Translations under genes and position numbers: made by a program
Part shown: positions 31,493-53,789 of the stretch, one piece after another
Layout: every line of letters begins with the position of its first letter
Position numbering within the stretch: the stretch's first letter is position 1
The notes under the pieces: model-generated
Told to the model about the DNA's origin: nothing
Seen by the model: only the letters and a program-made list of their open reading frames with translations
Database searches by the model: none
Origin: Kocuria marina
GTDB taxonomy: Bacteria > Actinomycetota > Actinomycetes > Actinomycetales > Micrococcaceae
Length of the DNA: 64,000 bases
Reading direction: 5' to 3'
Assembly: GCA_014652975.1 (NCBI GenBank)
Contig: BMZV01000003.1
Location: 62,001 to 126,000 of the forward strand

Positions 31493-32152
31493 TCAGCGGC
31501 GCATGATCCTGCGCGCGAGCCAGTTGCCGAAGAACTGCACGAGCTGGACCAGGATGATGATCACGATCACCGCGGCCCACGTGACCTGGTCGTTGAAGCG
31601 CTGATAGCCCAGGCGCAACGCGAAGTCACCCAGACCACCGGCACCGATCGCACCGGCCATCGCGGACATGTCCGTGATGCCGATGACCAGGAACGTGTAC
31701 CCCAACACGAGCGGGCCGAGCGCCTCCGGCAGGATCACCGTGGTGATGATCTTCCAGCGCGAGACCCCCATGGACCGCGCGGCCTCGATCACCCCGGGAT
31801 CCACCGTCATGAGGTTCTGCTCCACGATGCGGGCCACCGCGAACGTAGCGCCGATGGTCATGGTGAAGATCGCGGCGTTGGGGCCCAGGCGCGTGCCCAC
31901 GACCGATTCCGTGACCTGACCCAGGGCGGCCAGCAGGATGATGAACGGGATGGGACGCACGAAGTTCACCAGGAGGTTCAGCGCGGTGAACAGTGGACCG
32001 TTCTCCAGGATGCTGCCCCGCCGGGTCACGTAGAGCCCCATGCCCACGGCCAGGCCGATGAGCCCGGCCAGCACGAGGGTCACGGAGACCATATACAGCG
32101 TCTGCCCGGTTGCGTCCAACAACTGCGGGCCCAGAGCAGACCACTCCATCAC
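31493..32152 (-). CDS. metI: Methionine ABC transporter permease MetI
   Basis: Integral membrane subunit of the D/L-methionine importer. The 219 residues have about five hydrophobic segments and the BPD_transp loop ([29 protein letters not shown]), the coupling helix region that contacts MetN. The GTG at 32152 gives a GTGA overlap with the metN stop; the next codon is ATG and may be used instead. It is the last gene of metQ-metN-metI and is followed by a 12-bp perfect terminator stem. Confidence 0.94.
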
Positions 32153-33201
32153 TCACTCACCTCCCGCACCGTGGTGACGGCGCGCAGACTCTCGACGGCG
32201 CGGTCCACGGACTCGTCCGAACCGGTCAGGGACAGCGTGAGCGTTCCGAAGGACTGTGACTGCAGGATGGAGATCCCCCCGAAGGCAATGTTGAAGCTGA
32301 CACCGTCACGGGCGGCGTCCGAGAGCACGTCCCCGATCCGGTTCTGGTCGGTGACGTCCACCAGCACGAGCCGCCCGGGGTGTTCCCGGCGCAGCTTCTC
32401 GATCTCGTCCGCGCGCGGCACGGTGCGCGTGACCGAGGAGACGAACTTGCGCGTGGTCTGCGCCCGCGGGTGGGCGAAGACCTCCGCGGTGGTCCCGGTC
32501 TCCACCACCCGACCGCTGTCCATCACGGCCACGCGGTCCGCGGTGGCCCGCACCACGTCCATCTCGTGGGTGATCAACACGATGGTGATCCCCAGCTCAC
32601 GGTTGACGCGCTTGAGCAGACCCAGGACCTCCTGGGTGGTCTCCGGGTCCAACGCCGAGGTGGACTCGTCCGCGAGCAGCAGTTCGGGATTGCTCGCGAG
32701 CGCGCGGGCGATCCCCACGCGCTGCTTCTGACCACCCGAGAGCTGCTCGGGGTAGTTCCCGGCGCGCTCGGTCAAGCCCACGAACTCCAACAGTTCCGCG
32801 ACCCGCGCCTTGCGTTCCTCGGGCTTCCACCCGGCACGCTTGAGCGGGTACTCGATGTTGCCCGCCACGGTGCGTGACGTGAACAGGTTGAACTGCTGGA
32901 AGATCATCCCGATCTTGCGGCGGATGGGCGCCAGCTGGGACTCGCTGCGCCCGTCCACACGGTTACCGGCGACCTCGAGCGTCCCGGACGAGATCGGTTC
33001 CAGGCCGTTGATCAGCCGCACGAGGGTGGACTTGCCCGCCCCCGAGTAGCCGATCACCGCGAAGATCTCACCGCGGCGGATGTCCAGGTCCACGGAGTCC
33101 ACCGCGGTCACGGTGCGCGGGCGGCGTTTGGACCCCGTGACGAAGACCTTGCTCACGTCCCGGAAACTGACCAGGGTGTCCGCCGTGGCGGACGGGCTCA
33201 C
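32149..33201 (-). CDS. metN: Methionine ABC transporter ATP-binding protein MetN
   Basis: ATPase of the methionine importer. The 350 residues have Walker A GYSGAGKST (51-59), the signature LSGGQKQRVGIARAL near 155, Walker B LLLADE, and a C-terminal NIL ligand-binding domain (about 270-345). That domain lets intracellular methionine inhibit transport in characterised MetN proteins. GTG start at 33201 overlaps the metQ stop by 4 bp. With the SAM-sensing leader, control by end product would act on both RNA and protein. Confidence 0.95.
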   Translation of the reverse strand: MSPSATADTLVSFRDVSKVFVTGSKRRPRTVTAVDSVDLDIRRGEIFAVIGYSGAGKSTLVRLINGLEPISSGTLEVAGNRVDGRSESQLAPIRRKIGMIFQQFNLFTSRTVAGNIEYPLKRAGWKPEERKARVAELLEFVGLTERAGNYPEQLSGGQKQRVGIARALASNPELLLADESTSALDPETTQEVLGLLKRVNRELGITIVLITHEMDVVRATADRVAVMDSGRVVETGTTAEVFAHPRAQTTRKFVSSVTRTVPRADEIEKLRREHPGRLVLVDVTDQNRIGDVLSDAARDGVSFNIAFGGISILQSQSFGTLTLSLTGSDESVDRAVESLRAVTTVREVSE

Positions 33202-34082
33202 TTGGTCTGCTCCTTGAGGTCCTGCGAGTAGCGGGCCAGCAAGTCCTTGAGCTCCTGCTGGTCCACCTTGGTGGGCACCGCGGTGCCCTTGGTCTCGGTC
33301 TTCTCCGCGTCCTGGACCTTGTCGTCGTAGTAGAAGCTCGCGACCTTCTTCAGGGTCTCGTTGTCCGCGTTCGCCTCGGTCGCGGCGAAGAGGTTGTCGT
33401 ACACCTTGGCACTGTCCGCGGTGGGATCGTCCTGAGCCAGCGCGGACTTGGGATCGATGTTCGCGCGGTCCAGGAAGTCGTTGTTGACCACGGAGGCGGC
33501 CACGGAGTCCATGGACAGCACGGTCTGCTCGGCGGAGACCGGGCGGACCGTGACCTTGGACTTGGCGGTGTCGATGTCCTGCTCGGTGGGGGCGATCGTG
33601 TCCTTGGTGAACTCCACGAGACCCTGCTGGTGCAAGAGGTTCAGGGCGCGGGACAGGTTGATCGAGTCGTTCGGCACGGCGATCTCGTCACCCTGCTTGA
33701 AGTCACCCACGGATTTCACGCTCTTGGAGTACAGCCCCAGCGGGAAGATGGACGTGGAGCCCACGGGAGTGATGGTGTCCCCGGAGTTGTTGTTGTAATC
33801 GGCGAGGTACGCGATGTGCTGGAACCAGTTCATGTCGATGTCACCGCTCTTCAGAGCGGGGTTCGGCTGGCTGTAGTCACTGAAGTCCACGTACTCGACC
33901 GTGATGTCGTTGTCCGCGGCGACCTGCTTTAACGCGTCCTGCACGGGGGTCGAGCCCACGATCCCGACGGTGATCTTGCCGTCCGCGGCCGGGTCCGAGT
34001 TGTCGGAGCCGCCGCCGCACGCGGTGAGGGTGAGGCCCAGGGTGGTGGCCAACACGACGGGAATCAAACGCTTGGTTCGCAT
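33198..34082 (-). CDS. metQ: Methionine-binding lipoprotein MetQ
   Basis: Surface substrate-binding subunit (NlpA/MetQ family). The 294 residues begin with a lipoprotein signal peptide, MRTKRL then a hydrophobic core and the lipobox LTAC (residues 19-22, lipidated Cys22), followed by a GGGSDN linker. The family run VEYVDFSDYSQPNPALKSGDIDMNWFQH is present. ATG at 34082 has an AAAGG ribosome binding site at better spacing than the ATG at 34088. First gene of metQNI, preceded by a SAM-IV-type riboswitch. Confidence 0.95.
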   Translation of the reverse strand: MRTKRLIPVVLATTLGLTLTACGGGSDNSDPAADGKITVGIVGSTPVQDALKQVAADNDITVEYVDFSDYSQPNPALKSGDIDMNWFQHIAYLADYNNNSGDTITPVGSTSIFPLGLYSKSVKSVGDFKQGDEIAVPNDSINLSRALNLLHQQGLVEFTKDTIAPTEQDIDTAKSKVTVRPVSAEQTVLSMDSVAASVVNNDFLDRANIDPKSALAQDDPTADSAKVYDNLFAATEANADNETLKKVASFYYDDKVQDAEKTETKGTAVPTKVDQQELKDLLARYSQDLKEQTK

Positions 34083-34214
34083 GATCATGCCTTTCCAGGG
34101 GTCTGTGACGGGGACTCGCGGGGCGAACAGTCCCCCCTGGATGAGGGCACACGGGACGGGCACGTGCTGATTTCCGGGGAACCGCACTTGCCGTGATCTG
34201 TTGCAACCGCGACC

Positions 34215-34294
34215 GGATGGTCATCTGGGGCACCCCGCTACGGGAGAGGGTTGCCGTCCGGCCAGCCAGAGCTACGCGCCGGATCTCGTCATCC
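34215..34294 (-). ncRNA. SAM-IV-type S-adenosylmethionine riboswitch
   Basis: On the minus strand the leader of metQ reads GGATGACGAG, then GGCTGGCC...CGGCAACCCTC, then CGGGGTGCCCC and ATGACCATCC. These are the hallmark blocks of the actinobacterial SAM-IV/SAM-I family core (CGGCAACCCUCC followed by GGGGUGCCCC and a closing GAUGACC) in the right order. The outer stem pairs GGATG (minus-strand view of 34290-34294) with CATCC (34215-34219). It starts about 8 nt after a candidate -10 and ends 133 bp before the metQ start. SAM binding should turn off methionine import. A covariance-model search would confirm it. Confidence 0.85.
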
Positions 34295-34301
34295 ACTCGG
34301 A

Positions 34302-34332
34302 ATTTTAGCACGGCCCTGCCATGGGCCGGCAA
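34302..34332 (-). promoter_or_regulatory. Candidate promoter of the metQNI leader
   Basis: Minus-strand TAAAAT (34307-34302) is a good -10 element, with TTGCCG (34332-34327) upstream at a long 19-bp spacing. The riboswitch core begins 7 nt downstream of the -10, as expected if transcription starts at its first stem. The -35 assignment is weak. Confidence 0.5.
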
Positions 34333-34346
34333 CCGCCGGAAGGGCC

Positions 34347-35624
34347 CTATGCCATCCCGGCGATACGTTCGTCCGCGCGGGCCCGGGCCCACTCCTCCGC
34401 CCCCAGGACGTCCTCGAGGGTGGGCCGCGTGACGCCGTCGTGATCCTCCAGCACACGCTCGACCATGTCCACGATCTGCATGAAGCCGAGCGCCCCGCGG
34501 TGGAACGCGTGCACGGCCTGCTCGTTGGCGGCGTTGAACACCGCGGGCCACGTCCCGCCGCGCGAACCCGCGTGCTTCATGAGCTCCACGGCGGGGAACG
34601 CCTGCGAATCGAGCGGTTCGAACGTCCACTGTGCGGCCCGGGTCCAGTCGCACCCCGCGGCGGCGCCGGTCACGCGGTGGGGCCAGCCGATTCCGAGCGC
34701 GATGGGCAGGCGCATGTCCGGCGGGGACGCCTGCGCCAGGGTGGATCCGTCCACGAACTCCACCATGGAGTGCACGACCGATTGCGGATGCACCGTGACG
34801 TCGATCCGGTCCAGGGGGACGTCGAACAGTAGGCTCGCCTCGAGCACCTCCAGTGCCTTGTTGACCATGGTCGCGGAGTTCGTGGTGACCATGACCCCCA
34901 TGTCCCACGTGGGGTGCTGCAGGGCCTGTTCGGGTGTCACGCGCGTGAGCTGCTCGCGCGTCATGCCGCGGAACGGTCCGCCGGACGCCGTGAGCACGAG
35001 CCGGCGCACCTCGGAGGCCGTCCCGGAGCGCAGGGCCTGGGCGATCGCCGAGTGTTCGGAGTCCACGGGGATCAGCGCGTCCTGGAGGCCCGTGTCCGCC
35101 GCGGCGCGCAACACGAGCGGACCGCCCGCGATCAGGGACTCCTTGTTCGCGAGCGCCACCCGCCGACCCGCTCCCAGCGCCGCCAGGGTGGGTGCGAGCC
35201 CGATGCTCCCGGTGATCCCGTTCAGCACGAGGTCCGAACCCTCCCACTGCGCGATCCGGGTTGCAGCGTCCGGCCCATACAGGACCTCGGGTGCCGCCGA
35301 CGACGCCGCGCGTGACCGGTCCGCAATCAGCTCACGCAACCGGGTGGCGTCGTCCGCCGTACCGCTCGTGCCCACCGCACGGACACCGAACGTCACGGCC
35401 TGCTGCGCGAGCAGCTCGAGGTGACCCGCGCCCGCGGCGAGCGCCACGACCTCGAAGGGCTCGTGGGTGGCATCCGAGACGGGCCGGCGCAGCCCCGCGG
35501 CCTCGGACACGACGTCGAGCGCCTGCGTCCCGATGGATCCCGTGGACCCCAGGATCACGAGGCGCCGGGGGGCCTGCCGGGTGGCGGAGTCGAGATCGGG
35601 GGTCATGCCGGTGGAGGAAGTCAT
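34347..35624 (-). CDS. dxr: 1-deoxy-D-xylulose-5-phosphate reductoisomerase
   Basis: Second enzyme of the MEP pathway, converting DXP to MEP with NADPH. The 425 residues show the NADPH loop GSTGSIGTQ (26-34), ALANKESLIAGG, the metal/substrate residues in PVDSEHSAI and LTASGGPF, and MGVMVTTNSATMVNKALEV. ATG at 35624 has only a weak GGGG upstream; ATG at 35606 is an alternative. The gene ends 14 bp before the metQ promoter region. Its normal partner, an M50 site-2 protease gene, is not next to it. Confidence 0.95.
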   Translation of the reverse strand: MTSSTGMTPDLDSATRQAPRRLVILGSTGSIGTQALDVVSEAAGLRRPVSDATHEPFEVVALAAGAGHLELLAQQAVTFGVRAVGTSGTADDATRLRELIADRSRAASSAAPEVLYGPDAATRIAQWEGSDLVLNGITGSIGLAPTLAALGAGRRVALANKESLIAGGPLVLRAAADTGLQDALIPVDSEHSAIAQALRSGTASEVRRLVLTASGGPFRGMTREQLTRVTPEQALQHPTWDMGVMVTTNSATMVNKALEVLEASLLFDVPLDRIDVTVHPQSVVHSMVEFVDGSTLAQASPPDMRLPIALGIGWPHRVTGAAAGCDWTRAAQWTFEPLDSQAFPAVELMKHAGSRGGTWPAVFNAANEQAVHAFHRGALGFMQIVDMVERVLEDHDGVTRPTLEDVLGAEEWARARADERIAGMA

Positions 35625-52505: not shown

Positions 52506-53789
52506 GTGCGCGAGGACCTCTCCACCCCCGCAGTGCTGAGCGCCCTGCGGGTCACGTTGCACGTGAGCTTCGCGGCGCTGTTGGTGCTCGCCGCCGTGCG
52601 CGCAGTGCTGCACCTGAGCCGGGCCCCTGGCGGCGGGGCGATGATCGCCGTCGTCCTGGGACTGAGCGTGCTGCTCGCGGCGGTCTACCTCGCGGGGACC
52701 CTGGTGGAGAACCGTGTGGCGCGGGGTCGTGCGAGCCGGGAATCCCTGCGGTGGGGTCCCGGGTGGCTCGGTCTCATCGCGGCGCTGTGGGCCGCGCTGG
52801 CCCTGCTGAGCCCGGACTTCTCGTGGGTCGCGTTCCCCCTGTTCTTCCTGTGCCCCGTGGTACTGCCCACCGCGGCGGCGCTGGTCGCGATCGTGGTGCT
52901 CACCGGCGTCGTGGTGCTCTCCCAGTACCTACATGCCGCCCCGGGAGCGTTCACGGCGGGAATGGTGCTCGGACCCGCGATCGGTGCGATTGTCGCGCTG
53001 CTCGTGAGCTTCGGGTACCGCGCACTGTACGAGGACACCCGCCGCCACGTGCGCGCGATCCGCGATCTCGAATCCACGCGAGCTGAGCTGGCGCGCCAGG
53101 AACGGGACGCGGGGACCATGGCCGAGCGCGACCGGTTGTCCCGCGAAATCCACGACACCCTGGCCCAGGGCCTGACCTCGATCGTGCTAGTCTCACGGGC
53201 CGCACAGCGCTCGCTGGAGCGCGCGGAGCTCGACGCGGCCCGCGCGCAACTGGCCACGATCGAGGACACGGCCGCGGCCGACCTCGCGGAGGCGCGTCGG
53301 TTCGTACGGGACCTCGCCGCACCGGCACCGGGTGACTCCCTGCCCGCCGTCCTCGCGGAGGTGTGTCACCGCACCCGGGAGGCGGCCCGCGCCGTGGGCG
53401 CGCCGCTCACGTGCGAGTTCACGGTGGAAGGTGCCGTCCCCGAACTGCCCGCCCCGCAGCGCACCCTGTTCGTAAGGGCAGCGCAGTCCACCCTCGCGAA
53501 CGTGACCTCGCACGCGCGGGCGTCACGCGCCGTCGTGACCCTCGCGGGCTGGGACGACGCCGTGACGCTGGACGTCGTGGACGACGGCGCGGGCTTCAGA
53601 CCGCGTTCCGCCGCCGACGACGCACGCAACGACAGCTTCGGACTGGCCCACCTGCGACGCCGCGCGCACGAGCTCGGGGCCGTCCTGACCGTGGAGTCCG
53701 AACCCGGCGCCGGAACGGCTGTGAACCTGCGGTTGCCCCTGCCCGCGCCCGAAGCCACCCGCCCCCTGCCGAATGGAGATTCGTCATGA
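52506..53789 (+). CDS. Sensor histidine kinase (HisKA_3, NarL-system type)
   Basis: Membrane sensor of 427 residues. Five or six hydrophobic segments fill residues 15-170 with almost no extracytoplasmic domain, so the signal is probably sensed within the membrane. A short coiled coil follows, then the dimerisation domain with phospho-acceptor His216 in REIHDTLAQGL, and an HATPase domain with N-box ANVTSHARAS and DVVDDGAGF. GTG at 52506 has AAAGGAG upstream. Its stop overlaps the response regulator start (ATGA). Divergent from an FtsX-type ABC transporter it likely controls. Confidence 0.93.
   Translation: MREDLSTPAVLSALRVTLHVSFAALLVLAAVRAVLHLSRAPGGGAMIAVVLGLSVLLAAVYLAGTLVENRVARGRASRESLRWGPGWLGLIAALWAALALLSPDFSWVAFPLFFLCPVVLPTAAALVAIVVLTGVVVLSQYLHAAPGAFTAGMVLGPAIGAIVALLVSFGYRALYEDTRRHVRAIRDLESTRAELARQERDAGTMAERDRLSREIHDTLAQGLTSIVLVSRAAQRSLERAELDAARAQLATIEDTAAADLAEARRFVRDLAAPAPGDSLPAVLAEVCHRTREAARAVGAPLTCEFTVEGAVPELPAPQRTLFVRAAQSTLANVTSHARASRAVVTLAGWDDAVTLDVVDDGAGFRPRSAADDARNDSFGLAHLRRRAHELGAVLTVESEPGAGTAVNLRLPLPAPEATRPLPNGDSS

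Follow-up and report, generated by a model that had tools for sequence, protein, structure and literature searches.

The metQNI operon of this Kocuria genome, whose products would import methionine, is preceded by a leader that had been proposed, from the nucleotide sequence, to bind S-adenosylmethionine (SAM) and to shut off methionine uptake when SAM is high. Two questions are raised by this locus, i.e., to which riboswitch class the leader belongs and how it would act on metQ. On the minus strand of the window (the whole stretch of DNA analyzed, 64,000 nucleotides), the genes run in the order dxr, leader, metQ, metN, metI, ispG, an acetyltransferase-like gene and proS. The dxr frame stops at 34347, metQ starts at 34082, and metQNI lies between dxr and ispG (31493–34346). 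The parts of the leader and the operon, all on the minus strand, are given below.

34310–34302, minus: candidate extended −10 element TGCTAAAAT, containing TAAAAT at 34307–34302; TG[CT]TA is conserved
34294–34179, minus: SAM-IV aptamer (P1, P2a/b, P3, PK-1, P5, PK-2), from the RF00634 match and pairing in Kocuria
34294–34290, minus: P1 5' strand GGATG, pairing with 34219–34215; GC/GC/AU/UA/GC invariant in 27/27 rows
34270–34266, minus: PK-1 5' strand UCUGG, pairing with 34228–34224; pair 25-71 changes from UA to CG in 6 sequences
34256–34246, minus: conserved block CGGCAACCCTC, read in the sequence
34243–34239, minus: PK-2 5' strand CCGUA in the P3 loop, pairing with UGCGG at 34186–34182; pair 56-109 changes from AU to GC in 7 sequences
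34237–34227, minus: conserved block CGGGGTGCCCC, read in the sequence
34224–34215, minus: conserved block ATGACCATCC, read in the sequence
34213–34190, minus: P5 hairpin, from the Rfam alignment, with two non-standard pairs distally; outer three pairs 96.2% paired
34186–34182, minus: PK-2 3' strand, from the RF00634 alignment and pairing in Kocuria
34181–34083, minus: linker and putative expression platform, with no U run of four or more; sequence diverges between Kocuria clades
34153–34146, minus: CGUGUGCC, predicted to pair with GGCA at 34091–34088 and with the start-codon region at 34083–34080 in the MFE structure without the aptamer
34141–34136, minus: UCCAGG, predicted to pair with CCUGGA at 34099–34094, over the 5' half of the Shine-Dalgarno sequence
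34096–34090, minus: Shine-Dalgarno sequence GGAAAGG; GAAAGG precedes the start in 27/27 Kocuria leaders
34082–33198, minus: metQ, methionine-binding lipoprotein; PF03180 (NlpA lipoprotein), 196.2 bits
33201–32149, minus: metN, ATPase with a C-terminal NIL domain; PF00005 and PF09383; TIGR02314 at 304.5 bits (cut-off 499.7)
32152–31493, minus: metI, permease; PF00528; PRK10782 at 158.5 bits, under the cut-off of 212

The importer named in the original prediction is supported by the MetQ-, MetN- and MetI-like Pfam domains of the three downstream genes, and their best NCBIfam matches are likewise the MetQ, MetN and MetI models, all below the curated cut-offs. MetQ is 99% identical to that of K. 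marina and 90% identical to those of K. salsicia and K. tytonicola, and its relatives in the PDB include 4yah, named D-methionine-binding lipoprotein MetQ. Because the relatives share the start and the preceding GAAAGG, the start of metQ was taken as the ATG at 34082, with an in-frame ATG at 34088 as the alternative. The metN gene overlaps metQ by GTGA.

Class and extent of the aptamer

When all Rfam families were run over the window with cmscan, RF00634 (SAM-IV) was matched at 34293–34179 on the minus strand with 90.1 bits (E 6.6e-15), compared to a gathering score of 38 for this family, and model positions 1–116 were all matched. The other matches at gathering score in the 64-kb window were two tRNAs only. 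In a scan of a short region around the leader at a lax threshold, SAM-IV was the sole family listed. Both scans display just the best of overlapping clan members; SAM-I and the SAM-I/IV variant were run separately across the genome. At E ≤ 0.001, SAM-I (RF00162), a class marked by P4 and a kink-turn, did not match at the metQ aptamer (C3:96179–96293), with 94 of 183 first-look candidates scored, and the SAM-I/IV variant (RF01725) gave 0 matches in the whole genome, with 80 of 80 candidates scored. SAM-I was found at three places elsewhere in the same genome, all on contig C1 (genus search, E ≤ 0.001).

The metQ leader aptamer is thus a complete SAM-IV aptamer, as judged by the covariance model and both pseudoknots. 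It is assigned to SAM-IV rather than SAM-I because the part with P5 and PK-2 is present. It also lacks P4, as the 4–6 nt between the PK-1 and P1 3' strands leave no room for it. The sequence blocks, GGATG and TAAAAT on which the original prediction rested were all found at their places on the minus strand, and the match to a SAM riboswitch model that it had anticipated was obtained for SAM-IV. Its label of SAM-IV/SAM-I holds in its SAM-IV half, by P5 and PK-2, and is too loose in its SAM-I half. The span that it gave (34205–34335) covers the promoter and the larger portion of the aptamer, yet leaves out the PK-2 strand (34186–34182) and the 3' side of P5. The distance from aptamer to start, put at 133 nt, comes to 132 nt if counted between ATGACCATCC and the ATG, and to 99 nt once P5 and PK-2 are included. 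A further mark of SAM-IV is its position ahead of a gene for sulfur metabolism; metQNI lies downstream here, and metQ does so in 27/27 Kocuria. Binding of SAM by the metQ aptamer, and the direction of control, would follow from its membership in the SAM-IV family.

Conservation in Kocuria and beyond

MetQ was found in all of the 27 Kocuria genomes searched (this one included), and in each of them a SAM-IV aptamer lies upstream of metQ, with 85–112 nt from its tail to the start and 196–228 nt from P1 to the start (n = 27). The SAM-IV core is flanked by GGATGACGAG and the tail GCAAG(U/C)(A/G)CG in 27/27 leaders. The TG[CT]TA element ends 7–10 nt before the P1 GGATG, again in 27/27 leaders, and fits an extended −10 promoter, from which transcription of the metQ leader is predicted to start at ~34296–34294; a sigma-70 scan that also required a −35 hexamer found nothing at the metQ leader.

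Pairing was evaluated in an alignment of 26 distinct Kocuria sequences (out of 27 rows). The 34-pair structure with both pseudoknots was paired in 99.0% of cells. Six of the 34 pairs vary on both sides, amounting to 36 cells, compared to 10.4 in shuffles and at most 1 in slid versions, and the covariation score was 0.142, compared to 0.087 for shuffled and ≤0.038 for slid controls. The count of further pair types runs in the opposite direction, with 11 in the aptamer alignment and 13.1 in shuffles. Relatedness alone can beat shuffles without any structure, and more weight belongs to the slid controls. All five pairs of PK-1, which links the P2 loop to the strand following P3, were 100% paired, one of them changed on both sides, while the five pairs of PK-2, which links the P3 loop to the strand following P5, were 96.2% paired, the outermost being lost in 5 of the 26 sequences and intact in this leader. 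P1, P3 and most core positions are invariant across the 27 rows. That the aptamer is a decayed or non-functional relic, to which the two non-standard distal pairs of P5 and the outermost PK-2 pair missing from 5 of 26 sequences (though kept here) might point, is hardly credible given this invariance, the compensation of the varying pairs in the 27 rows and the conserved promoter element.

Outside Kocuria, no SAM-IV match above gathering score was found before MetQ at eight named loci (four from Rothia, two from Micrococcus and one each from Nesterenkonia and Glycomyces), of which the Nesterenkonia locus is uninformative, with only 4 nt of upstream sequence. A MetQ-like match was found in 22 of 32 genomes of other genera. 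Of 30 loci, 16 were scanned, and at three of these, which represent three further families of the order, SAM-IV precedes a MetQ-like gene, although one of the three rests on a weak MetQ match (53.8 bits). As these loci carry SAM-IV, the pairing of SAM-IV with metQ is not unique to Kocuria. At loci L060 (genome G017) and L062 (genome G007), the frame beside the riboswitch and metQNI instead resembles a formate acetyltransferase. Given this different neighbor, the riboswitch and metQNI may move as one unit.

This genome contains five SAM-IV matches, which precede a luciferase-like monooxygenase, a Cys/Met PLP enzyme, the methylenetetrahydrofolate reductase gene (MTHFR, metF), metQ and, for the weak fifth (L005:1501–1643; 40.5 bits with a cut-off of 38), a small open frame of ~92 codons; this last match may be due to chance or be a degenerate copy. 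The SAM-IV match before the luciferase-like monooxygenase (L001:1501–1615, minus strand, 96.9 bits) stands back to back with a SAM-I match (L001:1744–1835, plus strand, 60.3 bits), the two being divergent and 128 nt apart, and a divergent SAM-IV/SAM-I pair within 210 nt occurs in at least 9 of the 27 Kocuria genomes. Among the matches listed, the element before metF (loci L122–L148) belongs to SAM-IV in 12 Kocuria genomes and to SAM-I in another 14, which together cover all 26 genomes with a MetF match (of 27). The identity to MetF of this genome is 71–100% in the 12 SAM-IV genomes and 36–44% in the 14 SAM-I genomes. Because the identity split follows the riboswitch class, the metF gene and its riboswitch class may have been exchanged together.

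Control at the metQ translation start

Folded without the aptamer, the metQ Shine-Dalgarno sequence costs 9.2 kcal/mol to open (z 2.31), and none of 40 shuffles was as high. Among the 39 genes called in the window by a rough rule, 27 had a ribosome-binding site, and the z of metQ was the highest of these 27, closely followed by that of the gene at 52506; the values for its neighbors metN, metI and ispG were −0.96, −1.70 and −1.91, respectively. Because no other of the 27 ribosome-binding sites is as strongly occluded as that of metQ, the folding models favor translational control of metQ. The called starts at 52506 (plus strand) and 52147 (minus strand) are also unusually occluded (z 2.12 and 1.81), and no Rfam family at gathering score lies near either. 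The UCCAGG/CCUGGA helix is part of the MFE structure without the aptamer, with pair probabilities of 0.96–1.0 for 34094–34097.

The 27 Kocuria leaders were grouped by us into clades A–E by sequence. In clade A (eight species, including this one), the mean Shine-Dalgarno z was 1.71 for metQ vs. −0.43 for metN, and three pairs of UCCAGG/CCUGGA are kept in 8/8 leaders and two in 6/8, without compensatory change. In clade D (two species), the corresponding means were 3.69 and 1.45. No excess occlusion of the metQ Shine-Dalgarno sequence over that of metN was found in clades B, C and E, so that the contrast is seen in two of five clades; in clade B (four species), occlusion falls on the start codon instead (z 1.8–3.0). 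Overall, the z of metQ exceeded that of metN in 20 of 27 leaders (Wilcoxon p 0.02, for sequences that are not independent). The whole leader folds no better than shuffles (z 0.08), and the per-clade consensus folds differ in structure, with 1, 4, 5 and 0 compensated pairs.

We consider it fairly probable that the SAM-IV riboswitch in the metQNI leader acts by SAM-dependent occlusion of the metQ translation start. The operon would have its own extended −10 promoter between dxr and metQ, with transcription beginning a few bases before P1, and the 5' leader folds into the SAM-IV aptamer with its two pseudoknots, as shown by the model match and covariation. SAM, by analogy with the family, would stabilize the aptamer; while the aptamer stays intact, the linker is modeled as free to cover the Shine-Dalgarno sequence and start codon of metQ, so that little MetQ would be made and methionine import would fall. 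Expression of metN may fall with that of metQ through translational coupling at the GTGA overlap. At low SAM, the aptamer strands would compete for the linker and the site would open, a step that equilibrium folding does not reproduce.

Several folding tests bear on this last step. With the whole aptamer freed, the Shine-Dalgarno sequence of this leader gained 1.6 kcal/mol, which was reached by 7 of 40 shuffles; with the tail alone freed, it gained 0.28 kcal/mol, which 51 of 100 shuffles reached. When the complete aptamer was included and left free, opening the site still cost more than in shuffles (z 2.4 here; mean 0.75, n = 27), and the MFE structure of the whole leader keeps it closed. Across the 27 leaders, two-state opening by the PK-2 tail was unsupported at the Shine-Dalgarno sequence, and at the start codon at most 4 of 100 shuffles reached the values of L037, L045, L047, L056 and L057. 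For the whole aptamer, the opening test gave a mean z of just 0.49 at the Shine-Dalgarno sequence and 0.61 at the start (n = 27). The guess of translational repression in the original prediction therefore gains from the unusually occluded ribosome-binding site, but not from any opening beyond that of shuffles in equilibrium folding. Because pseudoknots, kinetics and co-transcriptional folding, proteins and the ribosome lie outside the models, the missing open state does not amount to a disproof.

The same aptamer could also act on transcription. The original prediction noted no obvious terminator stem, and our analyses agree, finding 0 terminator-like sites in 33900–34500 (shuffles give just 0.3) and no run of four U in the linker. 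An intrinsic terminator lacking a clear U tract, such as the strong hairpin predicted at 34135–34130/34115–34110, would have a parallel in this genome at the SAM-IV leader of metF, where a GC-rich hairpin, whose 3' arm holds a GGAGG Shine-Dalgarno sequence, is followed by U6 and then directly by the ATG. A hairpin of this type was found at 8 of the 13 metF loci examined (leaders L122–L129), seven with at least four U and one with UUU; the pattern used gave no output at the other five. The metF hairpin could act on translation and transcription simultaneously, blocking the former and terminating the latter. The hairpin at 34135–34130/34115–34110, however, is absent from the consensus folds of the other clades, and U runs of four or more occur in only 5 of 27 metQ linkers, in four cases right where the aptamer ends, which, together with the lack of terminator-like sites, makes such a terminator at metQ very unlikely. 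Rho might instead stop transcription before metQ, if a C-rich linker that is not being translated becomes accessible in the SAM-bound form. This would agree with the absence of an intrinsic terminator and with a linker that varies between clades and has few compensated pairs, and an occluded metQ start would itself keep the leader untranslated; C-rich stretches are, however, expected anyway in a G+C-rich genome, and we regard termination by Rho as rather unlikely.

A switch of three strands was also considered, in which a linker segment would have two alternative partners, namely the 3' strand of PK-2 with the nucleotides after it when SAM is low (open) and the ribosome-binding region, mimicking that strand, when SAM is high (closed). 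A segment complementary to both is present in this leader (z −4.08, with 1 of 300 shuffles as good) and in the near-identical L037 (z −4.29, 0 of 300), and in clade E at L056, L060 and L061 (z −2.97, −2.30 and −2.14), where tail and linker partners co-change by eye, with AAUC/GAUU in L060 and CAUC/GAUG in L061. The mean complementarity z over the 27 leaders, uncorrected for relatedness, was only −0.99 for the same segment pairing with both, −0.60 for tail/linker and −1.12 for linker/ribosome-binding site, and clade means computed by hand for the shared segment were −1.6 (A), 0.0 (B), −0.5 (C), −0.1 (D) and −1.9 (E). Moreover, the model with a locked tail has no general effect at the Shine-Dalgarno sequence, and G-rich/C-rich runs, from which the strong signal comes, were noticed only in this leader and L037. 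The scheme has appeal in clades A and E and little or none in B, C and D, and such a three-strand switch appears improbable. The related idea that the ribosome-binding region imitates the PK-2 strand and that one linker element chooses between them, so that the SAM-IV-specific pseudoknot would report SAM to the ribosome, is quite doubtful. Occlusion of the metQ translation start remains our preferred reading, by which the cell can probably stop methionine import when SAM suffices.

Comparison with known SAM riboswitches

A literature search of limited depth retrieved no paper reporting the Kocuria metQ SAM-IV leader, and no description of a SAM-IV expression platform was met in the limited portion of the literature covered. 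The metQ leader contributes a good further example to a known type of switch and does not represent a new kind. With it, methionine uptake joins the SAM-IV targets of Kocuria and 27 natural variants of one leader become available, and a single strain offers SAM-IV leaders with (metF) and without (metQ) a terminator-like hairpin for comparison.

Reported SAM-IV targets include the O-acetylhomoserine sulfhydrylase gene of M. avium (PMC3774663), cg1478 of C. glutamicum (PMC3890552) and the cysteine desulfurase gene of S. lividans (PMC8079986), whereas the target here is metQNI. The architecture described for SAM-IV, including the RNA of Mycobacterium sp. studied by cryo-EM, consists of P1, P2a, P2b, P3, P5, PK-1 and PK-2, without P4 (PMC6890682). 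The metQ aptamer has the same helices and pseudoknots as RF00634, likewise without P4, and the four-nucleotide turn after P1 (PMC6890682), and no difference in the aptamer was seen. The SAM-I/IV variant RF01725 belongs to the same superfamily (PMC2864571), but the SAM-I/IV class is described as lacking PK-1 (PMC6890682), which the metQ aptamer possesses. In Bacillota, for which SAM and T-box elements are described, it is SAM-I (the S box) that precedes metN/metI/metQ (PMC12452182). The metQ leader resembles SAM-I RF00162 in its ligand (by family), related core motifs and the same kind of operon (PMC12452182), and differs from it by the absence of P4 and the presence of the two SAM-IV pseudoknots.
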